Origin: a virus
DNA length: 27,758 nt
Virus record (IMG/VR): IMGVR_UViG_3300038701_001069
Span: 1 to 27,758 of that record
Direction: 5' to 3' (one strand)
Shown here: piece by piece, positions 620-27,413 of the stretch
Position numbering within the stretch: position 1 is the stretch's first letter
Layout: the number at the start of each line of letters is the position of its first letter
Made by a program: the position numbers and the translations under genes
The notes under the pieces: model-generated
What the model was told of the DNA's origin: nothing
Database searches by the model: none
The model's input: the letters and a program-made list of their open reading frames with translations, nothing else

Positions 620-1777
620 ATGCCCTCCAAACGAGAAACCACCACAAAAAGTGGCGAAGTCACTGTGAGCTACATCGTCTATTACAAGACCGAGGAAGGC
701 AAACGAACCAGTCGTGCGTTCTCTCAGAAGGCAAAGGCAATTGCCTTCGAAAGGGTGTGTAAGGGACAACCGAAAAAGCAGTCAGCACGAACGATGGCTA
801 GAGGTCATGCAACCCTACGATCCATCGCAGAGGACTACATCAGCGAAGGCATAATTGGGATTGACGGTGGCGATCCTTGGCGCTCGAACACCATCATCAA
901 CACACAACGTCGATTGAAGAAGCTGGGGGAGTTCATCGACCTGGACACCCCTTTGCGGATCATCACATCGCATACCATGAAGTCTCTCCGGAGAGACATT
1001 CAAGGCTCAGACATCGCCAGGTCAACACAGGTGTCCTTGTGGGGCTTCGTCAAAGCCGTCTTCAAGTTTGCGGCCTTGGAGGGTATCATATCGAACGATC
1101 CCACACACGGCTTGATGCTACGCAGATCGCGCCGTGTGGGCGTCGGTGAGGAGAAGGTGGAGGCATACACCAAGAAGGAGGTCGAAGCTCTTGTACGGAC
1201 CGCTCAGGCGCTTTCTGTGTCATCCAATCTGAAGAAGAGGAGAGCGCATCAGTTCACCTGGCTCATCGCCCCTCTTCTGTTTGAGACCGGGATGCGGATC
1301 AGTGAGCTGCTGGCGTTGGAGTGGAATAATGTCGATCTGGTTGATGGCGTGCTCCACATCCGTCAGTCGTTCGGACGGGGTGACAAAGATCTACAGGAGG
1401 TGAAGGCATTGGCATCTCACCGGAGCCTGGTCATATCGTCCGGAATGATTGAGGAGTTGAAAACCTTGAAGGAGCGTGGAACCAAGTTCCTCTTCGAGAC
1501 CTACAACAGGACGCCCTTGAGTTATCACAACGCCTTGCACTGGTGGTACCGACTGCAGGATGCAGCAGGCGTCAAGCGCGGCGGATTTCATAAAGCCCGG
1601 CACTATTATGCATCACGCCTGATCGAGGCCGGTGTCAATGCCAAGGTGCTGACGACTAACCTGGGGCATGCGGATGTCGCCTTTACGCTGCAGGTTTACG
1701 GGCATCTGTTTGACGACAGGGATACGAGGGATAGCAAGCGCCAATTGGCTGAGGATCTTTCAACCCTCAGCCTCTAG
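620..1777 (+). CDS. int: Tyrosine site-specific recombinase (phage integrase)
   Basis: This 385-aa protein has the standard layout of a phage tyrosine integrase: a short N-terminal arm-binding region, a SAM-like core-binding region at about residues 60-165, and a C-terminal catalytic domain. Visible catalytic residues are Arg226 (T-G-M-R-I-S-E), a probable Lys262, His324-x-x-Arg327 (H-K-A-R), His350 (L-G-H) and the nucleophile Tyr360 (Q-V-Y-G-H). It would carry out integration and excision at the tRNA-Thr-like att core just upstream. The start is chosen for AGGAGA about five bases before the ATG. It is the only clear plus-strand gene, and its last 18 bp overlap the convergent o-spanin gene. 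Confidence 0.95.
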   Translation: MPSKRETTTKSGEVTVSYIVYYKTEEGKRTSRAFSQKAKAIAFERVCKGQPKKQSARTMARGHATLRSIAEDYISEGIIGIDGGDPWRSNTIINTQRRLKKLGEFIDLDTPLRIITSHTMKSLRRDIQGSDIARSTQVSLWGFVKAVFKFAALEGIISNDPTHGLMLRRSRRVGVGEEKVEAYTKKEVEALVRTAQALSVSSNLKKRRAHQFTWLIAPLLFETGMRISELLALEWNNVDLVDGVLHIRQSFGRGDKDLQEVKALASHRSLVISSGMIEELKTLKERGTKFLFETYNRTPLSYHNALHWWYRLQDAAGVKRGGFHKARHYYASRLIEAGVNAKVLTTNLGHADVAFTLQVYGHLFDDRDTRDSKRQLAEDLSTLSL

Positions 1778-2089
1778 GTTTCCTGCGTCGATCTCAGCCT
1801 GGAAGTCTTCAAGGACCTTCTCGATGGCGTCCATGTTGCCGGAGCATTCGCGGATGTAGCGCTTGAGCTTCACCACATAGGCGGCAGCCGCACGTTGATC
1901 GTAAGGCTGTGCCGGTGGCAGCGGTACGCCGTCGACGGTCTTTTCATCCCCGCACACCAACAGGCTGTCAGGCACTGAAGGCGAGATGACGATGACGTTG
2001 CGCTCAGTTGTTGCGCAGGCAGAGAGTGCCAGAGATAGCACGACAGAGAACATCGTCGACCGGATACTGGTTTTCTTCGTCGGGCGCAT
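1760..2089 (-). CDS. o-spanin: Rz1-like outer-membrane lipoprotein
   Basis: This 109-aa protein has a basic N-terminus, a hydrophobic stretch and a lipobox L-S-A-C with the lipidated cysteine at residue 25. The mature part is proline-rich in its first half (PSVP, PLPPAQP) and ends in an amphipathic helix. Together with the i-spanin it would bridge the periplasm and fuse inner and outer membranes in the last step of lysis. The gene starts inside the i-spanin gene in another frame (86-bp overlap), as in lambda Rz/Rz1, with a strong AGGAGGT site before ATG 2089. It is longer than lambda Rz1. Its 3' end overlaps the integrase gene by 18 bp on the opposite strand. Confidence 0.8.
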   Translation of the reverse strand: MRPTKKTSIRSTMFSVVLSLALSACATTERNVIVISPSVPDSLLVCGDEKTVDGVPLPPAQPYDQRAAAAYVVKLKRYIRECSGNMDAIEKVLEDFQAEIDAGNLEAEG

Positions 2090-2384
2090 TTAGCACCTCC
2101 TGTAGTTGATCGTTGTAGATTTGCTGTTCACGGCGCCATTCGATCTGGCGTTGTTCCAAGGTCCGCTGGACGCCTTCCATGAGAGCGATTGTGGTCTGCT
2201 TGGAAAGCACTTCGTCCTTCAGGCTCTCGACCTGCGTGAGGGCTGCTGTGAGGTCTTCGTTCACACTCGACAGGCGCCACTGCGAGTACGCAAAGGCACC
2301 CGCCAGAGCGACAATGACCAGCACCATGCCGATCTGCAGATACTTGTCGAAGAAGCCGGTGATCGAGCTGATCAGATTACCCAT
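2004..2384 (-). CDS. i-spanin: Rz-like inner-membrane protein
   Basis: This 126-aa protein has one transmembrane segment at about residues 18-34 and a long charged coiled coil at 37-98, the expected form of an i-spanin that crosses the periplasm to meet the o-spanin. It carries cysteines at 114 and 122 near its C-terminus, which might form disulfides. The start at ATG 2384 follows GAGGAAA and overlaps the end of the holin-like gene by 8 bp, so translation is probably coupled. The assignment rests on topology and on the nested lipoprotein gene, since spanins share little sequence. Confidence 0.75.
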   Translation of the reverse strand: MGNLISSITGFFDKYLQIGMVLVIVALAGAFAYSQWRLSSVNEDLTAALTQVESLKDEVLSKQTTIALMEGVQRTLEQRQIEWRREQQIYNDQLQEVLNAPDEENQYPVDDVLCRAISGTLCLRNN

Positions 2385-2724
2385 AGGTCTTTTCCTCTTT
2401 GTGCTGTTCGATGTCCTCAGGATCGCGACCATCGGTCAGGGCGGTGCGCTTGTGGTCGCCGTAAGCGCGGACACCCTTGCCGATGTTGTGAAGGATCTCG
2501 GAGCGGTCCATTGTGGTGGTGAACAGGAAGCCGATGACCAACAGCTCGATGATGCCAAAAGACCCATCGACGGTTCTCTCCGCGATGGGGCCTTCGACAC
2601 CGAAGTAATTCATGGCTGTGATCAGGGAGGCGAAGAGTGCCGTGTTCGTGAAGACGAAGATCGTCCGACGAGTGGCAGCTCGACGCTGGTTTACTCCCTC
2701 GTGAGGTAGCGGCTGCTGACCCAT
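2377..2724 (-). CDS. Holin-like membrane protein
   Basis: This 115-aa protein has two predicted transmembrane helices at about residues 21-42 and 55-72, a charged N-terminus with several arginines, and a hydrophilic acidic C-terminus. Between the endolysin and the spanins, a small two-helix protein is most likely the holin that times release of the endolysin. The start at ATG 2724 lies inside the endolysin gene (34-bp overlap). It is chosen because GGAGAG sits 8 nt upstream and no ATG, GTG or TTG lies between there and the first helix. Family membership is not recognised from sequence, and an antiholin is possible. Confidence 0.6.
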   Translation of the reverse strand: MGQQPLPHEGVNQRRAATRRTIFVFTNTALFASLITAMNYFGVEGPIAERTVDGSFGIIELLVIGFLFTTTMDRSEILHNIGKGVRAYGDHKRTALTDGRDPEDIEQHKEEKTYG

Positions 2725-3500
2725 CCTTCTTTCTCTCCGTCGTAACTGACACGCATCCAGCCTCCACTCTGCTCGACCGACTGCACGTGATCTCCCCTCG
2801 ACAAGCCGCCGATGACGCTCCAATTGGTGCCTGGACCGGCGCGGACGTTGAGCGATGAGACATCGACCGTGTAGTCGCGGACCGGTAGCGGTTCGTCATC
2901 GCGCTGCTTTCCGAGGAGGTCGACAAACGACTTCATCGGAAAGGCCGGGCCTGGGTCCGTCTTCCATCCGCGAGTGTCGATCTCTTCGTGGCTGCAGATG
3001 CCTTCGATCTGATAGTTCTTGACGAGCGCTTCCACGATCTCCCGACCGGCATCCAGTTGGGTCTTGGTGTAGACAGGCCAATAGAAGTCGCCACTGCCGA
3101 CACGCGGATGCGGAGCGATCACATAGTCGTCGAACTTGTTGTCCGGTACCTTATTGCCATAGGCATCGAGCAATCCGCTGTTCGTCTTGCGCAGGTAGCC
3201 GATGTTGACAAATTCGATTCCGATTGAGTGTGAGTTCAGATTGCGAACGCCGTCGAAGACGCTCGGACCGGCGTGCCAGGCCTTCTTGTTGAAGGGCATC
3301 ATCTGGGTGATCTTCCCGGCCCGGTCGACAACCAGGTGGGCCGACACCTTCGACGCGGGACTGCGGAATGTGTTGATCGCCGATTTGCCGTTGTAGCCAG
3401 CCGTGTAGTGCAGAACGATGAAGCGAGGCTTGATTGTTCCGCCCCCGTTGGGGCTTTGAATGAAGTCAGCGCCAACGAGCTTGTGATATTTGATGTCCAT
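2691..3500 (-). CDS. Endolysin: N-acetylmuramoyl-L-alanine amidase with SH3 domain
   Basis: Residues about 20-190 are an Amidase_2 (T7 lysozyme/AmpD-type) zinc amidase. The zinc ligands are probably His31 (V-L-H-Y-T), His171 (C-S-H-E) and Asp182 (T-D-P-G-P), and G-I-E-F-V-N at 94-99 is the usual strand after the H-S-I motif. Residues about 210-266 form a bacterial SH3-type wall-binding domain (L-N-V-R-A-G-P-G, then G-W-V-S-S-R-Y-L). The enzyme cleaves the amide bond between N-acetylmuramate and the stem peptide. There is no signal peptide, so export through the holin is expected. It is the first lysis gene, and its GGAG ribosome site is locked in a predicted stem (3509-3554). Confidence 0.92.
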   Translation of the reverse strand: MDIKYHKLVGADFIQSPNGGGTIKPRFIVLHYTAGYNGKSAINTFRSPASKVSAHLVVDRAGKITQMMPFNKKAWHAGPSVFDGVRNLNSHSIGIEFVNIGYLRKTNSGLLDAYGNKVPDNKFDDYVIAPHPRVGSGDFYWPVYTKTQLDAGREIVEALVKNYQIEGICSHEEIDTRGWKTDPGPAFPMKSFVDLLGKQRDDEPLPVRDYTVDVSSLNVRAGPGTNWSVIGGLSRGDHVQSVEQSGGWMRVSYDGEKEGWVSSRYLTRE

Positions 3501-3508
3501 TTGGATTT

Positions 3509-3554
3509 CTCCGGTCGTTATTTTTGACCATTATGCCATAAAAAACGACCGGAG
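3509..3554 (-). promoter_or_regulatory. Stem sequestering the endolysin ribosome-binding site
   Basis: CTCCGGTCGTT and AACGACCGGAG (on the plus strand 3509-3519 and 3544-3554) are perfect 11-bp inverted repeats with a 24-nt loop. In minus-strand RNA the downstream arm contains the GGAG Shine-Dalgarno of the endolysin gene, so readthrough transcripts from the tail operon would pair it away. There is no terminal U-run, so this is not a standard terminator. Confidence 0.6.
3530..3538 (-). promoter_or_regulatory. Extended -10 promoter element inside the endolysin leader stem
   Basis: On the minus strand TGGCATAAT matches the extended -10 form TGn-TATAAT. No good -35 box lies 16-18 nt upstream. 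Transcripts starting about 7 nt downstream would lack the anti-Shine-Dalgarno arm and leave the endolysin start free. Confidence 0.45.
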
Positions 3555-3574
3555 TCTCAGTGGCTCACCAAAAA

Positions 3575-3591
3575 AGTTAGATATTCTGTCC
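3575..3591. promoter_or_regulatory. 17-bp operator-like palindrome, site 3
   Basis: AGTTAGATATTCTGTCC lies between the tail-fibre and endolysin genes. The half TTCTGTCC matches the family consensus and the other half is weaker. GTGGCTCA follows in the same gap at 3560-3567. Confidence 0.45.
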
Positions 3592-3599
3592 TTTGTTGA

Positions 3600-4523
3600 T
3601 CAAGGGACGTTGAAAGTCCGCTCTTCCAGCGATGTCCAGGCTGCTTCACCTGTCACCGTCATGACCGTTGTCCAAGAACCACCGAAGTCTTCGCTCTTTT
3701 CGAGGGTGAAGGTCTCAGGCGCAGCGAGGGATGACGTAGACGAGCGGGCCATGATGTAGACCTGGGCTACAGTCTTCGCAGTGTCGAACCCGTAGTAGAG
3801 TAATCCAGGAAGCCCGTTCTTGCCCCAGTTGGTTCCTGTATCACCATCGAAAGCCTTAGCGGCATTCTCAGATGTGGTCCATTGTCCATTGGCGACAGCG
3901 AAGCCGCCAGTCATTGCCTCTGGGGTATCCACCACAGATCTGAATTCCACCTCCTGGACGCCGACCGAAGAGTTGTTGTCCGTGTCGGTGATGTTGAGCC
4001 TCCACCAGACCGCGCCCAACTTGTAGATGCGAAGCTGGCTGGACTCCCAGGAGGTCTGGTTCTGCACCTGCAGGATGTTGGTCCATCCGCCGACACCATC
4101 GGACTTCTGAAGGATCGGATCGACCGGGGCGCTTTGGTAGTTGAGGCCGTCATTCCTTGCCCGCAGCGCGAAGCCTCCAAGGTTCTGAGGGCTAGGGAAT
4201 ACGATCTGGACCCAGGCGACGTTGCTGGTGATGTCTGTCGGCCCAGCCCACCTGGTGCTTGGATCTCCATCGAATGCCTTGTCTACACTCTCGGACGTGC
4301 CCCATTCGGAACTTGCAGACAAGGTTGCTCCTGCGACGGACACAGGAGATCCAGCGATGTCGTAGAGGGTGATCTCAGCCAGACCAATTGTGCGACCTCC
4401 ACTGACCACCTCAGGAGTGGTCATATAGATCCGCCAAGTGGTAGAGGCGTCCGGATCGACCGGGCCTCCACCAAGATGCGCAGTGATCGAGGCGGCTGAT
4501 ACGCCTGCCAGGAGACCCAACAT
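3600..4523 (-). CDS. Tail fibre/receptor-binding protein with two discoidin (F5/8C-like) domains
   Basis: This 307-aa protein has a short glycine/alanine-rich hydrophobic N-terminus and then two copies of a galactose-binding-like beta-sandwich, at about residues 30-190 and 190-305. Both show the hallmark A-F-D-G-D-x-x-T-x-W-x-x loop seen in coagulation factor 5/8 type C domains (around residues 83 and 225). Such domains usually bind sugars, so it probably contacts cell-surface polysaccharide at the tail tip. ATG 4523 overlaps the stop of the previous gene by one base (TAATG) and is preceded by GGAGG. The upstream fibre has two similar domains, so the pair may be a duplication. The exact ligand cannot be inferred. 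Confidence 0.75.
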   Translation of the reverse strand: MLGLLAGVSAASITAHLGGGPVDPDASTTWRIYMTTPEVVSGGRTIGLAEITLYDIAGSPVSVAGATLSASSEWGTSESVDKAFDGDPSTRWAGPTDITSNVAWVQIVFPSPQNLGGFALRARNDGLNYQSAPVDPILQKSDGVGGWTNILQVQNQTSWESSQLRIYKLGAVWWRLNITDTDNNSSVGVQEVEFRSVVDTPEAMTGGFAVANGQWTTSENAAKAFDGDTGTNWGKNGLPGLLYYGFDTAKTVAQVYIMARSSTSSLAAPETFTLEKSEDFGGSWTTVMTVTGEAAWTSLEERTFNVP

Positions 4524-6322
4524 TAGATCGCCTCCAGGTCGCCGGTCAGATCCCATTCGTTGGTTCCGACCTTGATCAGTGTTGCGGTCGATCCCTGTTT
4601 GCGGAGGTTCAGCGTCTCAGGCGTGTTGACCGTCACACCAGTGTCTTCAACCACCGTCATCTGACCGGCGCCGACCTGGCGCAAGGTGATGATGGTACCG
4701 ACGTCGAATGCCACAGAGGCATTGGCAGGAACCGTAAGATCATTGGCGCTGGCGTTGTCCACGCGGACGTACTTTCCAGCATCTGCAAGGACCAGGGTGT
4801 AAGAGGCCGATTGATCGTTGATCGAGGCAACACCCTCGTTTTCCCACGAGACAGCGTAGTCGTCGCCACTGATCTTCTTTAGGACCTGGCCGGTGGTTCC
4901 GCCCTTCGGCAGATAAGGTGTCGGCGGCAGAGGGATCACGTTCCACTGCAGGATTGGATAACCGGTGTCATCGTACTCGAAGAACGGCACATAGTTCGTA
5001 CCATCGTCCGAGTATTCCAAACGGAATTGGGTCATCAGGTTGCTGCCGGACTCCTTCTGGTAGAAGGCGAAGGCAGCGATAGCCTGCTCGTTTCCAACCC
5101 CGAAGTCCCAGCCGATCACCTTCTCACCACCGGAGAGGCTGCCAGAATCCCAGTCGGTGTTGACGTTGTTGTCGAAGGCCGCACTCGGAGTGTTGACCGG
5201 AGAGAAGGCACTACCACCTTCCGTGTCGGTCAGATCGTTTCCGAGAGCGTCCTGCAGCTCAATGCCTGAGATGCGGATATAAGGGTTTCCGGTCGATGCA
5301 CCGACAACAGCAAGACGCCAGTAGCGGTGGGGATCGTACTCAGCGCCCGGCCCGCCAGAAGCGCCTCCAGCGACCCAGCGCTCCAGAGAGGAATTCCAGA
5401 CAAGGGTAGCGCCTGAGTCCGGCGTTCCGGGGAGTTCGACGTCGTCTAGGTCACCCAGGTTCTCGCGCTTCTTCAGGTAGAGCGGATGCGTCGAGGAGTT
5501 CGTGGTCTCCACCAGGTTTGTCCAGGTCCAGATCTCGACTTCCCATGCCTCATACCAGGTCACACCATCGTCGGAATATTCGACGACGCCGGAAGTAGGC
5601 TGATTGTCGTTCGCCGTGCTGCCGACCGTGACGTCGATGTGAGTGATCGCGACCGGCGAAGCGAACTGATATCCAATCCAGTGGTTGCTCGTCGATACCG
5701 TACCCACGTCGCTGGTCCACTTGGTGGCGACGTTATCGTCATATGCATTGGCGACGACATCTCCGCTGTAGTGGCTGCTCTCCAGGGCCGTGCCGCCAGT
5801 CGTCAAACGAATGCCCGCAGGATCGCTCCGCATGTTCAGTTCATTGATGCTGACGAAGCTACCATCGATCTTCGCGGTCTTGACCACAAAGCGCCAGTAT
5901 TCGTGTTCGCCGTTCGGCTTCGGGCCGACTGACGAGCTGTTGCTGATGGCTGCACTGTTGGAGATAATCATCACAGAGGTGCCATCCGAGTGGAGTACAC
6001 AAACAGCTTGTGCCGGGACGTTGGCGCTACCAATGCCGCTGATCACGATCAGGGTTTCGGAGCTGGCGCGATTGTCGATCACGTAGGTGCGTGTGCGGGT
6101 CGGGACAGTGAGTGTCGATCCGAAGGCAACATTTGTCGTGCGGAACGTCATGTGCCGCACGAAGTCCACATCCGGCAGAACAAGGTTGCCATTGTCCATG
6201 TCGACCGTCACGACATCGTTCATCGCACGTTCAAGGTAACCGACCATCGAGTTGATGGTGTCTTCCTTCGCGGCCTGGGATGTGGCGAGCAGCGGGATGT
6301 CCAGGATTGGTGAGTTTGCCAT
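4523..6322 (-). CDS. Large tail fibre protein with two discoidin-like domains
   Basis: This 599-aa protein begins S-P-I-L-D-I-P-L-L-A-T-S-Q-A-A-K, a conserved start of alphaproteobacterial phage fibre proteins (DUF2793-like) that probably anchors it to the tail tip. Two F5/8C-like beta-sandwiches follow, with loops A-Y-D-D-N-V-A-T-K-W near residue 195 and A-F-D-N-N-V-N-T-D-W near 390. A short collagen-like GGASGGPGA linker lies between them. The C-terminal 110 residues form a beta-rich module seen at the ends of many phage fibres (S-Y-T-L-V-L-A-D-A-G-K-Y-V). GGAG lies upstream of ATG 6322, one base after the stop of the tail-tip gene. Confidence 0.75.
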   Translation of the reverse strand: MANSPILDIPLLATSQAAKEDTINSMVGYLERAMNDVVTVDMDNGNLVLPDVDFVRHMTFRTTNVAFGSTLTVPTRTRTYVIDNRASSETLIVISGIGSANVPAQAVCVLHSDGTSVMIISNSAAISNSSSVGPKPNGEHEYWRFVVKTAKIDGSFVSINELNMRSDPAGIRLTTGGTALESSHYSGDVVANAYDDNVATKWTSDVGTVSTSNHWIGYQFASPVAITHIDVTVGSTANDNQPTSGVVEYSDDGVTWYEAWEVEIWTWTNLVETTNSSTHPLYLKKRENLGDLDDVELPGTPDSGATLVWNSSLERWVAGGASGGPGAEYDPHRYWRLAVVGASTGNPYIRISGIELQDALGNDLTDTEGGSAFSPVNTPSAAFDNNVNTDWDSGSLSGGEKVIGWDFGVGNEQAIAAFAFYQKESGSNLMTQFRLEYSDDGTNYVPFFEYDDTGYPILQWNVIPLPPTPYLPKGGTTGQVLKKISGDDYAVSWENEGVASINDQSASYTLVLADAGKYVRVDNASANDLTVPANASVAFDVGTIITLRQVGAGQMTVVEDTGVTVNTPETLNLRKQGSTATLIKVGTNEWDLTGDLEAI

Positions 6323-12653: not shown

Positions 12654-15600
12654 CAGTTGTTTCTCCTACGTGTGCGCTCCTGAGCGGAGCTGAGTCTCTG
12701 ACTGATCTGACGCTGATTGCGCTTGAAGTCGTCAGCGCCCTTGAGACCACTCAGGTTGAGGTTGAAGACGGTCGGACCGCCAGCACGCGATGACTGGAAT
12801 TCCGACTGCTGGGAGTCGCCGGACTTGGCGGGCATATTCATCTCGACCGGAACCTTGCGTCCACGCGACAGCGGAATGACCGCCTCGTTTGGATGCAGAA
12901 CTGACGGGATGCCACCGGCCCCGTAAGATCCTGTGTTCGGTGTGCCCTCGGCGTAGTGTGGCATGCGACGGAAGGCGACAGGATCGGTAGCTAGGCCACC
13001 TTCCTTGAACGAGCCAAACAGGGCGCTGAGGAGACCTCCACCCATGCCGCCCATTCCGCCACCAGAACTTCCGAGTTGGCTCAGGAGCTGCAGGATTGCG
13101 CCGCCGAACTGACCCAGGCCGGGGACAACGGACGACAGAGGTCCGAGGAGCGAGCTGATCCCGCCACCCATCTGCTGAAGACCAGGCTGCGCCGTCTGAG
13201 CACTCTGTCCTGCCTGAGCAAGCGACTGCCCGGCCTGCTGGAAGCTCGGAGCTGCCTGCTGGGCCTGCTGTCCGGCCTGCTGGATCGCTGCACCGGACTG
13301 CTGATCAGCAATAGCCTTCTGCTGCGTCGTCATCGTCTTCTGCTGAGCGGAAACCTGTTCCTGCTGCGTGGCAGTCTGGGTCTGCTGTGCCGTCGTCTGA
13401 GCTGTCTGTCCGAGCTGCTGAAGGTTCTGGTTCACCTGCTGGATCGATCCGGTAGTTGTCGGGTCAACCTGGACGCCCTGAGCCTGGATTCCTGCGGCCT
13501 GGATCGAGTAATTCGGATCGACCGGCTTCTGACCGGCGACGGTTCCATGGTGATGGACCGACTGACCAGCACCCAACTTGGGGCCGTCGAGTGAATTGAT
13601 CCAGCCGAGGTTTTTCTTGGAAGAGAAGAGGGGGTTAGCATAGTTGAGGTGTCCACCAACAGATGACGCCTGACCACCCATACGCTTCGCCAGATAGTCA
13701 TCCACGAAGTCGCTGGCCTTCTTTCCGCGACCGGAAAGCAGCATACTGTCCGGAAGATCGGAGACGCTTCTGCGCCCTTCCTTCCAAGATACAGGTCCGT
13801 TGATGTCGGAGAACTGCTTACGGGCGTTTACTACCGAAGTCACGGAGTCACCCCAGCGTCCCGAAACCTTGCGGTTCAAGATGGTGTCAGTAATCCCGGC
13901 AGCCTGGCTGTTGTAAGCGTCACCCTTCAGGTATGCGGCTGCCTCCGTCGCGAGGGTCTTCTTGAGGTCGGTGATTTCTTGAGGAGACAAGGTCAGCACG
14001 TTACCATTCGGATTGAATGGTACTGCAGGCATTCCTGAAGAAGCCTGCTGAGCGAGGCTTGAAGTTGCACCACCGGATCTTGTCACATCTCCGGGAAACG
14101 GCTGAGATCCACCGGAAGCAGTCGAGCTGGTAGCCATCTGATCAAGTGCGGCTGCGGCGTTCTGTGCAGCGGTTCCCAAGGACTCAACCTGAGGAGATGC
14201 TGATACAGAATTCGTTTCGAGCTGCTTGACAGCTTGAGAGCTGGAGGTGGTCGCGTCCCTGAACTGTACCTGGGCATCCATTGCAGTCTTCTGCATGTTG
14301 CCATTCATATCCAAGGTGCCGCGAAGCTTCATGGCGGATGTGTCGAGCTGGCGAAGACCTTCGGCAGTCTTGGCCTCTTCATCCGATCCGGAACGACCAA
14401 ATCCTGGTCGCATTTCCCAGTCCTGAGCGTTCGCTGTGACAGCATCCTGCGCTGCAGCGTACTTATCGACAGCCGGTGTCGATACCGCCTGCTGGGCAGC
14501 CGTCTGCGTTCCTCCGAAGAGGTTGCCGAACATGCCCTTGTAGAGCTGGTTGATCCCGATCTTGATGAATTCCTTCAGGATCGATTTTGCGAGCGAAGCA
14601 AAGTCAGCCTTACCGTCTACAACCAGATCGGCGATCTGATCGGACAGCCCTTCCATGGCCTGAACTGCGACCTTGTCGGTGGCTACGCCAACGCGCTCGA
14701 TGCCATCCACCCAATCCTTGAGAGGGCGGTCGTTCATGCTCTGCTGTGTCTCGATCAGCTTACGCAGTTCCTTGCTCTGCGCCGCTGTAACGTGAACGCC
14801 CTTTTCTGCCAGCTCGTTGATCTTCTGACGATGCGCGATTTCAACCTCACGGGCGTCAGAAGCCATATTCTGAAGACCCATTTCGTTCTTCATCTCGCGG
14901 ACCATGGCCGCATATGGATCTGCAGTTTCCTGCAGCTTGCGGGCGTGGAATTCGAGACCGGCGTTGTATTGTGAGAGGGTAATGTCGCCTCTCTGGAGAG
15001 CAGCGTTCAGGGCAGCCACTTCCATCTTGTAATCGTTGGAAGCTTTTGCTGCGTCCTTGAGGCGCTTCGAGACGGAGTCCTTTCCACCTTTGGAGTCTTT
15101 GTCAGACTCCTTGAGCGGATTGATCCCTGACGTATCAGGAGTAGCAGCCAGCATACCGCCTGACGTGCTGGCACGCTTCTTGGCTTCCTCTTCGCGAGCC
15201 TTTTCGGCTGCCGCAGCCTCAGCTTCGCGGACAGTCTTCATCTCCAAAGCACGCTTCTTCAGTTGATCCAGACCAGCGTTGAGGAGTTTTCCCGCCTTCA
15301 TCTTGGCTTCATCGACGCCAAACAGCTTGTCGACAGTGTCAGAGACGAGCTTGGCTGTGTCGTTCAGTGCTCTGAAATCCGACTCGATGTCGGCGGAATA
15401 CTCCGCCATGAGCTGCGCCTCAGACTTCCATGGCTGGAAGATCTTGGACGTGTAATATTCCATATTGCGTGCAGCGACGGCGATCACTTTATTGATCGCA
15501 ACACCGAATTCAGCAAAGGTCTTCACAATTCCGGCGAGCACGATTTGCGCCAGGCTGCCAAACAGTTGCTTGAAGTAGTCAGCCGTGAATTTACCCTTGT

Positions 15601-20381: not shown

Positions 20382-20398
20382 ACTTTTTGCCTGGTGGC

Positions 20399-20821
20399 TC
20401 ACCCTGAATTTTCATCTCTCCAATAAGGGACGCTGACGGCGATCCGCACAAACTCCGATTTTGTGCCAAGGTCTTTTAGGACAGGCGTCTTGAAATTCAG
20501 GCGAGCGTTGTCGTCGAGGATGGTGGTCCATTCGTCAAAGAGACCGGCGCACGAGGTGGCGATCCTCTCGACATCGCCCATGCCGGTATCCTTCGGGTAG
20601 AGGACATCAATCTGCAGAACACCGACGTAGCGAACCGTTCGCTTGCCGCCCAGATTGGCTCGACGTGACTTGCCTTCCAGGATCGCCATTTCGACGTATG
20701 GTGCCTCAGACGGTTTGCGAGACTTGGTGTTGTCGAAAGCAAAGTGGATTGGAGGGACCTGGTTCTGAAGGTGATTGTAGAGGCGGCTTTCTACCGCCTT
20801 TCTCATTGTCGGAATACTCAT
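20399..20821 (-). CDS. Tail terminator protein (DUF4128-like)
   Basis: This 140-aa protein begins with a helix carrying R-K-A-V-E-S-R-L and continues with alternating strands (P-Y-V-E-M-A-I-L-E-G, V-G-V-L-Q-I-D-V-L-Y-P), as in small tail terminator proteins related to lambda gpU. These cap the finished tail tube and provide the surface that joins the head. The gene shares ATGA with the upstream neck gene and directly precedes the tail tube gene, the usual place for a terminator. The stop codon is the TGA of the shared TGAGCCAC motif. Confidence 0.75.
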   Translation of the reverse strand: MSIPTMRKAVESRLYNHLQNQVPPIHFAFDNTKSRKPSEAPYVEMAILEGKSRRANLGGKRTVRYVGVLQIDVLYPKDTGMGDVERIATSCAGLFDEWTTILDDNARLNFKTPVLKDLGTKSEFVRIAVSVPYWRDENSG

Positions 20822-21674: not shown

Positions 21675-22189
21675 TAGGATCTCCTGATTTTGGCGAAGGT
21701 AGAATTTCCGAGGATCGTGCCCAGGCCGCGAAGGATCAGGTTCAGTTGCGGGGGAACGACTGGGAGCGTGTAGTCGTCGCGGAAGACCAGCTCGATGGAG
21801 TCAACCTTCAGCTTCTTCAGTCCGTCCTGTCCGCGAGGTGCGCCTCGGTCGCCTGCCAGGAGGAAGCGGGCCATCTCGATGGTGGCTTCCTTGAGCTGGT
21901 CCGGAATGACGTCAGGAGGCAGCGGTGTGCCGTCTTTGTCGTACACGCCGGTTCGCGGGAACCTCAGGGATTGGTCGTCATATGTCTTGTAGCCATTCCA
22001 GCGTGCCTGTTGATCGAGGTAGCGTGTCGCCCATGACAGCAGGCGCTCCTTGTCATCATCAGTCAGAGCAGCCCAGGAAGCTGAGACGTGAATGTTCTGT
22101 GAGAGATAATCCGTCGCCTCTTCAAGGCTGACGTAAGAGTTGGAGCCGGGGACGTTATCCCCGGTCTCCACGATGAATGAATAAGCCAT
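21674..22189 (-). CDS. Head-tail connector/adaptor protein (DnaT-like family name)
   Basis: This 171-aa protein opens with Y-S-F-I-V-E-T-G followed by N-S-Y-V-S-L-E-E-A-T-D-Y-L, then W-A-T-R-Y-L-D-Q-Q near residue 54, W-N-G-Y-K near 64 and L-R-F-P-R-T-G-V-Y near 75. This pattern marks a phage family annotated as 'putative DnaT-like ssDNA-binding protein', but its place at the head-tail junction indicates a connector. It is the first gene of the four-gene neck operon and has its own promoter (22216-22244) and a GAAGGA ribosome site. Confidence 0.7.
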   Translation of the reverse strand: MAYSFIVETGDNVPGSNSYVSLEEATDYLSQNIHVSASWAALTDDDKERLLSWATRYLDQQARWNGYKTYDDQSLRFPRTGVYDKDGTPLPPDVIPDQLKEATIEMARFLLAGDRGAPRGQDGLKKLKVDSIELVFRDDYTLPVVPPQLNLILRGLGTILGNSTFAKIRRS

Positions 22190-22215
22190 GGCGCGATCCT
22201 TCGAATTAGGCGTTT

Positions 22216-22244
22216 ATTCTGACATCAAACGCCCAAATTGTCAA
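22216..22244 (-). promoter_or_regulatory. Promoter for the neck operon
   Basis: On the minus strand TTGACA (22239-22244), 17 nt, then CAGAAT (22216-22221) give a strong sigma-70 match about 27 bp before the connector ATG. The -35 box is one half of operator-like site 6. Confidence 0.75.
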
Positions 22245-22255
22245 AAAATCTATCC
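22239..22255. promoter_or_regulatory. 17-bp operator-like palindrome, site 6
   Basis: TGTCAAAAAATCTATCC contains the -35 box of the neck operon promoter in one half. Its left edge touches the phoH-like stop codon, and GTGGCTCA follows immediately at 22256-22263. Confidence 0.55.
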
Positions 22256-23029
22256 GTGGCTCATATGAGAAAAGGCCTCCACCCACTCCCTTGCATCCTC
22301 CGAACGAACGCAGTCGCTTTCGGCGAATGTGATCAGGTCTGGGGATAGATCCATGTCCTCAATCATCTGGATGATGACAGCCAGGCCGGAGTCATCGATG
22401 TCGGTCTGATCGGTGTCGCCAGTGACGACGTAGACCGAATTTTCTCCCTTTCTCGTCAGGAAGAGTTTCAGGTCGCTGAAGGTGCAGTTCTGCGCTTCAT
22501 CCAGGATCACCCAGCAGTCTTTGAATGTCCGTCCCCGCATATGTTCGAAGGACAGAAATTCGACTTTGCCCTCTTTCTCCCAGCGCTCAAGCGTGGCAGC
22601 AGAGACCTCATCCTTGATGGCATCAACGATAGGAACAAGCCATGGGGCAAGCTTCTTGTTGAGGCCTCCAGGCAGAAAACCCTGCCGGTGACGGGCGTGG
22701 GTGACCGTAGGTCGGGCAATGAGGATCTTCTCAATTCTCTTTTCGAGCAGGGCCTTAGCAGCCATACGCGCCGGGATGTAAGTCTTGCCGGTACCGGCAG
22801 GACCAATCCCGAAGATTTGAGTTCCGTCCGACAGGCACTCGATATAGTCGGCCTGTGTTTCCGTCCTGGCCTCAAGCGGAGCGTATCCGTATTTTGGCTT
22901 ATTGGACTGCGAGTTCTTTCCCTTCGTGCGGCGAAGCTTTTTACGCTCACGGCGCGTCAAGACTTTCTGAAGGTCAGCCTCTGTGGCGGGTTTCACATCG
23001 GGGTCGAAGAATTGAGCTTGCACGTTCAA
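22250..23029 (-). CDS. PhoH-like P-loop ATPase
   Basis: This 259-aa protein has Walker A G-P-A-G-T-G-K-T (residues 76-83) and Walker B V-I-L-D-E (174-178), with the PhoH features A-R-P-T-V near 105 and D-E-A-Q-N near 177-181. The N-terminal 45 residues are lysine/arginine-rich and could bind nucleic acid. Phage PhoH proteins are common auxiliary genes; proposed roles are RNA/ribosome-linked ATPase or helicase, and none is certain. The start is probably TTG 23029, because AGGAG ends 6 nt before it, whereas the nearest in-frame GTG is too far. The ribosome site overlaps the stop codon of the 53-aa gene upstream, so the two are coupled. Confidence 0.9.
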   Translation of the reverse strand: MNVQAQFFDPDVKPATEADLQKVLTRRERKKLRRTKGKNSQSNKPKYGYAPLEARTETQADYIECLSDGTQIFGIGPAGTGKTYIPARMAAKALLEKRIEKILIARPTVTHARHRQGFLPGGLNKKLAPWLVPIVDAIKDEVSAATLERWEKEGKVEFLSFEHMRGRTFKDCWVILDEAQNCTFSDLKLFLTRKGENSVYVVTGDTDQTDIDDSGLAVIIQMIEDMDLSPDLITFAESDCVRSEDAREWVEAFSHMSHG

Positions 23030-24432: not shown

Positions 24433-24454
24433 CCATTTTCTCGGTGGCTCACAA

Positions 24455-25058: not shown

Positions 25059-27413
25059 TCAAGGTTGAGTGAAAGTGTCCTGAATAATTCGGATCTCTCG
25101 GCGGAACATGACAGCTCTCAGGGTGGCGCTGGTTGTCAGGCCGGACAGTAGTAGCTCGCCTTCCGCACTCAGGATTGCTGCTGCATCGCCCTCAGATCTG
25201 AACTTTGGTAGGACCAGCTCGGAAGTGATGCGGAATCCGAACTTGGCCTCAGCCTCGGACTCCAAGGTAGGCAGTACCATCACGCTATTGATCTTCTTGC
25301 TGTCCATATTCGCACTGGCATCGGCTTCCAGCGCTGGCAGGGTCAGCTCGCCTGTCACATTCCAAATGAGCTTGGCTTCAGCCTCCATCTCGAAGGCTTG
25401 CAGTTGCAACTGTCCGGTATTATCGAGAGGACTGGTTACCTCGATATCAGCGATCAGTTTGTGGAGAGAGAAGTTCGCATCAACAAGGGTCGGACGGTCC
25501 AGCAGGATCTCAGCCTGGAGCGTTGGTAGGATCGCTTCTGATCGCACCACCATAGGAACATCGAGGACGCCCTCAGCCGTGAAACCGCTGAGGATGCCTT
25601 CCGCGATCAGGCCGAAGTCAACGTGCCCCTCGCCGTCTGCCTCGAAGGCTTCCAGGTATGTCTCGGACTCAATCGTGCGAGAGTCTTTTTCGAGTTCTGC
25701 ATCCAGCTCGAATGAAGGTAGGTCTGCCTCTCCTTCAACAAAGATTGGCTGAAAGACCAGTCCGTCAGATGAAAGGATCGGAAGGTAGATCTCTGAGGTG
25801 GCATCATAGCCAAATTTTGCATCCGCCTCAGCCGTGAGGACTGGAAGCTCCAACGCCCCGAAACTCCCCCAAGGGACATCAACCTCACCGTCAGCCGTAA
25901 GCGGAGACAGGTTGGCTTCACCAAAAATCTGTCCTTCGTCAATCTCCAGAAGACCTTCCAGGACAAATCCCTGCAGCGAGACTTCGGCTGGTTCTGGAAC
26001 GATGTCCCATTCGATCATACCATCGGTGACGAACCCTGGAATGATCAGCTCGGAAGCTCGCACTTCAAGCGGATGACGAACGAAAGCATCAGCCGTAAAG
26101 GCGTGCAGCTCCAAAAAACCATAGGTGAATGGTGCCGGGTCGTTTTCGATTGTGATGATCGGATCGACGGTCGACAGGAACGCGCTTGCTGGCGTCATTA
26201 CAATAGGCTGAAGCGTGATGACGTCTTCTTGCGAGGCAGAGATAAGCGCGGTCGCTTTGAAGGCAGGTAGGTAGGCTTCCGAGATGATCCCTGTGTTGAC
26301 TTCCCCTTCCCCTGCAGCGCTCAAAGCTTGCAGTGACATTGCGGAGGTCACGTTGTATTGCACTCCGGCTTCACCAGCAGCCGTGAATGCCTCCAGCGTC
26401 ATCTCGCTGGTGATATTCAGTCCAGCGACTGGTTGAGGAGTGAGGTGAACCTTCGTTACCGCTCCGGCGCCGCCGAACGCAATGACGCTTCCGTCATTCT
26501 TGTTCGTGTTACCTTCATAGGCTTCTACCGGCGTGTAGCCAACGACATCAAGCGTTCGATCAATGTAACTATCGCCATCCTTCTCGTAGCAGGCATATGA
26601 GGTGCCAGCCAGACTCTGGAAGAACAGGTATGCGCCATTCGAGATGAAGGCCAGGGCGATACCCTGGAATGCCGGTACGCCGCCAGGGAATGCTGTTCCT
26701 GCCGGGACCTCAGAGAATACACCACCAACCTGCTTGACGATCCCGATGCCACCACCTGTCAGGTATTGACCAAAGGCGACATGGTTTCCGACCGGGTGCC
26801 ACTCGATGTGCCAGTTACCGTTGCTGGCGATCTCTTGCAAATAGGTGGTGGACGTCGCGGTGGCGGAATAGAAATGCTTTTGTCCATTTCGTGCCACAGA
26901 AGCGAGAAAGGCACCATCGTGAGAGAACTTTACATCCTCAACGGTTGTGCTCATTGCTCGTGATGACTGCAGGGCGCCAGTTGCGCCTGTGACGATCCAG
27001 TTCGCAACTGTACCGTTGACACCTCCGGTAGCGATGTGATCGGGGTTCAGAGGAGATACCGAAATGCCTCGAACCTCAGAAGAGCCGGTGGCAAATCCGC
27101 CGACATAGGTGAAGGTATCGGTTCCAGTGTCGACGGTGGCGATGTAGACAGAACCGTTCGTGGCGCCAATATATAGCTTGGACTCATCGGCAGCCCACGC
27201 AATAGACGAGATGCCAATCGCAGGAGATCCCACCCAGGAAGTCGCTGTGTCGTAATTGCCAGTAACGTCGTTCCGGATCGCTACCGAAGGTACGCCGAGG
27301 ATCGTGCCACGAAGGATGTATTTTCCGGTTGGAGATGGAAACACATCGTTGATGTACGTGGACCCATCGGAGACCGCGACGATTGTTTTCTCGACAAAAC
27401 TGAGGGCTGCCAT
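25059..27413 (-). CDS. WD40-like propeller fused to a long array of 21-aa repeats
   Basis: Residues 1 to about 325 of this 784-aa protein look like a WD40-type beta-propeller (I-S-S-I-A-W-A-A-D-E-S-K-L-Y-I-G; V-E-D-V-K-F-S-H-D-G-A-F-L-A-S-V). The remaining 450 residues are about 18 degenerate repeats of 19-24 residues with consensus S-E-x-x-L-P-x-L/F-x-A-x-G/A-x-A, e.g. G-E-L-T-L-P-A-L-E-A-D-A-S-A. They alternate two short strands with acidic turns and would form an elongated beta-solenoid. The protein is large, acidic and without a signal peptide. A head or tail appendage that displays the propeller is plausible. AGGAGGG precedes ATG 27413, nine bases after the upstream stop. Confidence 0.7.
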   Translation of the reverse strand: MAALSFVEKTIVAVSDGSTYINDVFPSPTGKYILRGTILGVPSVAIRNDVTGNYDTATSWVGSPAIGISSIAWAADESKLYIGATNGSVYIATVDTGTDTFTYVGGFATGSSEVRGISVSPLNPDHIATGGVNGTVANWIVTGATGALQSSRAMSTTVEDVKFSHDGAFLASVARNGQKHFYSATATSTTYLQEIASNGNWHIEWHPVGNHVAFGQYLTGGGIGIVKQVGGVFSEVPAGTAFPGGVPAFQGIALAFISNGAYLFFQSLAGTSYACYEKDGDSYIDRTLDVVGYTPVEAYEGNTNKNDGSVIAFGGAGAVTKVHLTPQPVAGLNITSEMTLEAFTAAGEAGVQYNVTSAMSLQALSAAGEGEVNTGIISEAYLPAFKATALISASQEDVITLQPIVMTPASAFLSTVDPIITIENDPAPFTYGFLELHAFTADAFVRHPLEVRASELIIPGFVTDGMIEWDIVPEPAEVSLQGFVLEGLLEIDEGQIFGEANLSPLTADGEVDVPWGSFGALELPVLTAEADAKFGYDATSEIYLPILSSDGLVFQPIFVEGEADLPSFELDAELEKDSRTIESETYLEAFEADGEGHVDFGLIAEGILSGFTAEGVLDVPMVVRSEAILPTLQAEILLDRPTLVDANFSLHKLIADIEVTSPLDNTGQLQLQAFEMEAEAKLIWNVTGELTLPALEADASANMDSKKINSVMVLPTLESEAEAKFGFRITSELVLPKFRSEGDAAAILSAEGELLLSGLTTSATLRAVMFRREIRIIQDTFTQP

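Follow-up and report, generated by a model that had tools for sequence, protein, structure and literature searches.

The leader of the T4 lysozyme gene, known from T4 and its relatives, is a textbook case of lysis delayed by RNA structure. On the long early transcripts of T4 gene e a helix silences expression about 100-fold, and late transcripts lack its 5′ strand (PMC3014915); the same design is found in the T4 genes soc, 49 and I-TevI (PMC2988022). In this work we analyze a viral DNA of 27,758 nucleotides (hereafter the window; IMG/VR record IMGVR_UViG_3300038701_001069), in which an initial annotation had proposed a comparable arrangement ahead of an endolysin gene. As in gene e, the Shine-Dalgarno (SD) sequence of a lysis enzyme is predicted to lie in a helix on RNA initiated upstream, and a promoter that by its sequence falls inside the helix region would yield RNA devoid of the 5′ strand. 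The locus differs from gene e in that its loop and arms carry TGGCATAAT and lack the T4 late promoter TATAAATA, a phage-specific box being combined with sigma70-like -35 and -10 elements; in that read-through would come from late-looking tail genes and not from early ones; and in that an SH3-domain amidase takes the place of T4 lysozyme. We propose that the hairpin locks endolysin expression on read-through RNA and that the lock is released by the gene's own promoter inside the hairpin, a reading to which we assign a probability of about 0.64.

The endolysin leader and its conservation

The endolysin gene (2691..3500, minus strand) encodes a product of 269 aa with an Amidase_2 domain and a C-terminal SH3 domain (Pfam PF01510, 3e-27; PF08239, 1e-14; phrog_1794, 9e-44). 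The lysis cassette also holds Rz-like (2004..2432, minus strand; phrog_739, 2e-5) and Rz1-like (1760..2089, minus strand; phrog_456, 2e-6) spanin genes, and a tail gene (3600..4556, minus strand; phrog_17517/phrog_10304) lies upstream of the endolysin. From the stop of the tail gene at 3600 to the endolysin ATG at 3500 the minus strand reads GTGAGCCACTGAGACTCCGGTCGTTTTTTATGGCATAATGGTCAAAAATAACGACCGGAGAAATCCAAATG, its elements following one another 5′ to 3′ as GTGAGCCAC, TGAGA, CTCCGGTCGTT, TTTTATGGCATAATGGTCAAAAAT, AACGACCGGAG, AAATCCAA and ATG. The perfect 11-bp stem attributed to this junction is present as described, with a 5′ arm CTCCGGTCGTT at 3544..3554 and a 3′ arm AACGACCGGAG at 3509..3519 (both minus strand), and extends through mismatches to 18 nt at 89%. 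The SD sequence GGAG (3509..3512, minus strand), 8 nt before the ATG, forms the 3′ end of the stem. A terminator scan of the window found no intrinsic terminator between the tail gene and the hairpin, nor, outside genes, anywhere from the tail operon promoter to the hairpin; the only strong intergenic minus-strand terminator that it found, at 24482-24459, lies upstream of the tail operon.

The window has two inverted repeats of at least 11 bp with a loop of 3-40, where dinucleotide shuffles average 0.24; since 22% of the shuffled windows contain at least one, the endolysin stem alone is weak evidence. Local shuffling around the endolysin promoter matched the hairpin in 0 of 300 cases, and Rfam returned no match in the window at gathering score.

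The closest relative found is a prophage of Rhizobium rosettiformans W3 (L003/L005, contig G001), the endolysin of which is 65% identical and is preceded at the equivalent place by GTGAGCCACCGGACTCCGGTCGTAATCTATGGCATAATTGTCAAAAATTACGACCGGAGAATTCTATGG. Between the two phages the element is identical at 55 of 62 positions (89%), compared with 67% across the coding DNA of the endolysin and 49% at its third positions. The first 10 bases of the 5′ arm are the same; stem pair 11 changes from U-A to A-U in the prophage, pair 12 is gained and the remaining pairs are constant, with 12/13 and 13/13 of the modelled pairs formed in the two phages. Compensatory changes in related phages had been put forward as a check on the stem, and one such pair change was found, in this prophage; resting on two sequences only, the covariation is suggestive, and a covariation shuffle test (246/500) is powerless with that number. 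The unpaired loop bases TATGGCATAAT and GTCAAAAAT are also unchanged, which argues for a function read from the sequence itself, such as a promoter. The exact stem is common to just these two phages among those found: the prophage was the sole match in exact-element searches of IMG/VR, and among loci matching CTCCGGTCG...CGACCGGAG it alone also has the loop sequence. Searches with the endolysin in the Rhizobiaceae and its order yielded few close relatives, and most endolysin homologues lack a hairpin, many of them abutting the upstream gene; the element is absent from the named phages examined (RpAliso, RcXuper, MD18, Lacusarx and EliS-L02).

Predicted folding with 200 nt of upstream RNA gives GGAG an unpaired probability of 0.00-0.01 in both phages. 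The modelled cost of opening the SD sequence is 9.6 kcal/mol in the window and 9.4 kcal/mol in the prophage when the 5′ arm is included, and 1.8 and 3.7 kcal/mol, respectively, when RNA starts about 7 nt after CATAAT and the arm is missing, the short RNA of the prophage retaining moderate SD pairing. In the window the cost holds at 1.8 kcal/mol for every start from 3526 to 3520 and jumps between leader lengths of 50 and 55 nt. When leaders are cut back to 23 nt, the cost drops by 8.2 kcal/mol for the gene at 22189 and by 8.0 kcal/mol for the endolysin, the top two values among 16 window genes. The genes with these values are the two that have a box promoter (see below) predicted to start transcription about 20 nt from the start codon. 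From these models we infer that the stem would block ribosomes in vivo, and for the endolysins of the window and of the prophage we favour SD burial as the route of silencing.

Taken alone, the SD-opening cost is not diagnostic, as the minus-strand gene at 27413 scores higher. Its SD sequence pairs with its own coding region, giving the highest opening cost in the window independently of leader length; this structure is as strong as that of the endolysin, yet it has no internal promoter.

A promoter family with a TGAGCC box

The loop of the endolysin hairpin contains the extended -10 element TGGCATAAT (TG-G-CATAAT; 3530..3538, minus strand), identical in the R. rosettiformans prophage and in keeping with the TGTCAGAAT-type -10 elements of sister promoters. 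At the -35 position, GAGACT (3553..3558, minus strand) matches the consensus in GAC only, 17 nt from the -10, and the two other phages whose endolysin is preceded by a box also have GAC at this position. Directly upstream lies a GTGAGCCAC box (3560..3568, minus strand) of a late promoter family. The extended -10 element thought to lie in the loop is indeed there, but the promoter is not confined to the loop, its -35 region and spacer overlapping the 5′ arm and its box standing outside. Judging from the -10 element, we infer that transcription would start near 3523 on the minus strand.

The window has exactly three copies of GTGAGCCAC, all on the coding strand and either between genes or at the end of a gene. 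Besides the endolysin copy, one (20394..20402, minus strand) belongs to the tail-tube promoter, which has the core TTGACG-17-TAGAAT and no hairpin, and one (24444..24452, minus strand) stands at a short spacing of 23 nt from TAGAAT. A ATGAGCCAC box (22256..22264, minus strand) heads the promoter of a head-tail adaptor gene, with a -35 TTGACA at 22244-22239 and a -10 CAGAAT at 22221-22216. The boxes at 20402 and 22264 are each followed by TTGAC, a 17-nt spacer and YAGAAT, and a general promoter consensus scan independently recovers both cores; the plain scan is silent on the endolysin site. The full box/-35/-10 pattern occurs twice in the window phage and three times in the prophage, versus 0.01 and 0.00 in shuffles; in the prophage it precedes a portal-like gene (DUF4055), a scaffold-like gene and a tail-tube gene, and in contigs L169, L196 and L157 it precedes tail-tube genes of roughly 600 aa. 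Family sites thus fall at 20402, 22264, 24452 and 3568 (minus strand) in the window, at 1762, 8384, 17082 and 39580 in the prophage, and also in L169, L196, L157 and L163, before portal, scaffold, adaptor, tail-tube and lysis genes. Among named phages, Mesorhizobium phage Cp1R7A-A1 and Erythrobacter phage EliS-L02 each have the box ahead of the tail-tube gene. A loose version of the pattern gave 58 hits, most of them chance- or coding-like, and only those upstream of a portal-like gene or of a tail-tube gene of roughly 600 aa were retained; another pattern, GTGAGCCACYNRNACTCCGG, was discarded, its 10 near-identical hits all being to one unrelated sequence.

Box and -10 are 43-45 nt apart in the standard promoters, 33 and 32 nt apart in the endolysin promoters of the two phages and 23-24 nt apart in a third form, spacings that differ by roughly one helical turn each. 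In P2-type late promoters the activator (Ogr) binds a site centred near -55. The box of the standard promoters analyzed here has its centre at a similar place, about 52 nt ahead of the inferred start, but TGAGCC is not the P2 site and the endolysin box is about 11 bp closer. The box would presumably be bound by a phage late activator.

A palindrome like TGTCAGAATTTCTGACA recurs in both phages, in the window at about 207, 487, 24432 and 6493 and in the prophage at 541, 3771, 9368, 19027, 31416 and 39556, overlapping some -10 regions, and is a possible repressor or activator site. Repeated TATGCGCATACG palindromes at 261-303, between the left end of the window and the integrase gene (620-1777), are perhaps operator or attachment-site repeats.

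Hairpins over other late promoters

A second promoter within a hairpin (TTGGGCGTTTG / TAAACGCCTAA; 22206..22236, minus strand) has CAGAAT as its -10 and precedes the head-tail adaptor gene at 22189 (phrog_477). The adaptor gene of the prophage has a hairpin at about 15220-15292 (start of L046) whose stem differs and whose loop contains TGTCAAAAT, so that the adaptor -10 TGTCARAAT sits in a hairpin loop both in the window (22206-22264, minus strand) and in the prophage; by inspection of the alignment, two stem pairs are altered on both sides and two through G-U changes. Three further contigs (L051, 5736-5830; L052, 605-700; L053, 5655-5750) have, at this same junction after PhoH, a box, TTGACG and a 13-14-bp GC-rich hairpin over the adaptor -10, and in L047-L049 a TATAAT lies in the loop of a longer hairpin over the start codon, without a box and with a weaker signal (13/300 shuffles). 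Before the endolysin of G225, a box is combined with an unrelated 14-bp hairpin over the -10. Applying one uniform hairpin test to 20 sites, we found the -10 covered by a hairpin (0-5/300 shuffles) in 3/3 box promoters ahead of endolysins and in 5/6 promoters ahead of head-tail adaptors, and at none of the 11 other sites (97-294/300 shuffles), a split that is descriptive and not blind since the set was assembled while looking.

Hairpins that bury the SD sequence also occur behind a different promoter. Endolysin relatives about 50% identical to that of the window stand behind the T4-type late motifs AATAAATA/GATAAATA (L229, 2970-3001; L234, 2963-2995; L231, 1409-1441), and in L229, L231 and L234 the SD sequence is predicted to be buried on long RNA (12.9, 7.0 and 7.0 kcal/mol) and freed after the late-type promoter (0.2, 1.7 and 1.2 kcal/mol). 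These leaders differ from the window in promoter type and have stems of unrelated sequence, which suggests repeated evolution of one solution.

The sister hairpins offer some ground for regarding the endolysin structure mainly as an insulator, at which read-through RNA would be terminated or cut by RNase III before the promoter restarts transcription, with SD burial secondary. G225 and most adaptor cases have the SD sequence outside the stem, the adaptor hairpins standing upstream of it; the 14-bp GC-rich stem of L051 runs into a U-rich tail, TTCTTTTATT, and so resembles a terminator containing a promoter, and G225 has ACTGATTTTC in the corresponding tail. The endolysin stem itself does not satisfy intrinsic-terminator criteria: the sequences following it in the window (AAATCCAAAT) and in the prophage (AATTCTATGG) have no U-run, and the scan calls no terminator there. 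For the endolysin we accordingly consider this account unlikely.

Similarly doubtful is the possibility that the inverted repeat is a DNA operator, with a dimeric regulator bound to two CTCCGGTCGT half-sites around the -10 and the RNA hairpin a by-product. In its favour, the promoter core lies at the centre of symmetry of the repeat, 10 bp of each arm are fully conserved, and pair 11 has changed symmetrically, as it would in a DNA palindrome. Against an operator, however, the half-site (at most one mismatch) recurs just as scattered single copies and is absent from the other box promoters; the stems of the sister hairpins are mostly unrelated in sequence, and several contain G-U pairs, which are mismatches in DNA; and the 3′ arm stops exactly on the SD sequence. 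That a chance stem merely coincides with a chance -10 match, without any regulatory role, is highly improbable, for although shuffled windows do produce such stems at the rate given above and the plain promoter scan misses the site, the above-coding conservation in a second phage, the position on the SD sequence, the shared box and the outcome of local shuffling all speak against it.

A proposed read-through lock and its possible role

Under the read-through lock that we prefer, transcripts entering from the tail genes would carry both arms, GGAG would be paired and the endolysin would be poorly translated. The late promoter would comprise the TGAGCC box, a weak -35 and the extended -10; since the 5′ arm holds its spacer and the loop its -10, RNA begun near 3523 would lack the 5′ arm and be translated. 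If only this RNA is readable, the lysis gene would depend on its own promoter and not on the amount of tail mRNA. The claim that the SD sequence is hidden on read-through RNA and released on RNA from an internal promoter thus draws predictive support from conservation, the compensatory change, folding and the promoter family, while the location of that promoter had to be revised.

The T4-like delay of lysis suggested in the initial annotation fares less well. The predicted arrangement is like that of gene e, but the tail operon promoter (20402) has the same box as the endolysin promoter, so both are probably late, and insulation from the tail operon, perhaps also from leaky lysogen transcription, fits better than early/late timing. 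Because some related hairpins lie outside the ribosome site, and because their common trait is that the promoter's own RNA is missing the 5′ arm, the shared role may be insulation from read-through. More tentatively, and at somewhat less than even odds, phages of the Rhizobiaceae and related hosts may possess a general module in which the -10 of a TGAGCC-box promoter lies in a hairpin formed only on read-through RNA, insulating lysis and adaptor genes, with the stem sequence free to vary and silencing achieved by SD burial, start-codon burial or possibly termination.

The locus would extend the logic of the T4 lysozyme leader to another promoter type in a temperate phage, and to a second late gene in several phages, suggesting a general way to seat a separately controlled gene within a long operon. 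For a group of phages whose transcription is sparsely documented, it also supplies a late-promoter box open to testing, together with a cultured prophage carrier, R. rosettiformans W3.
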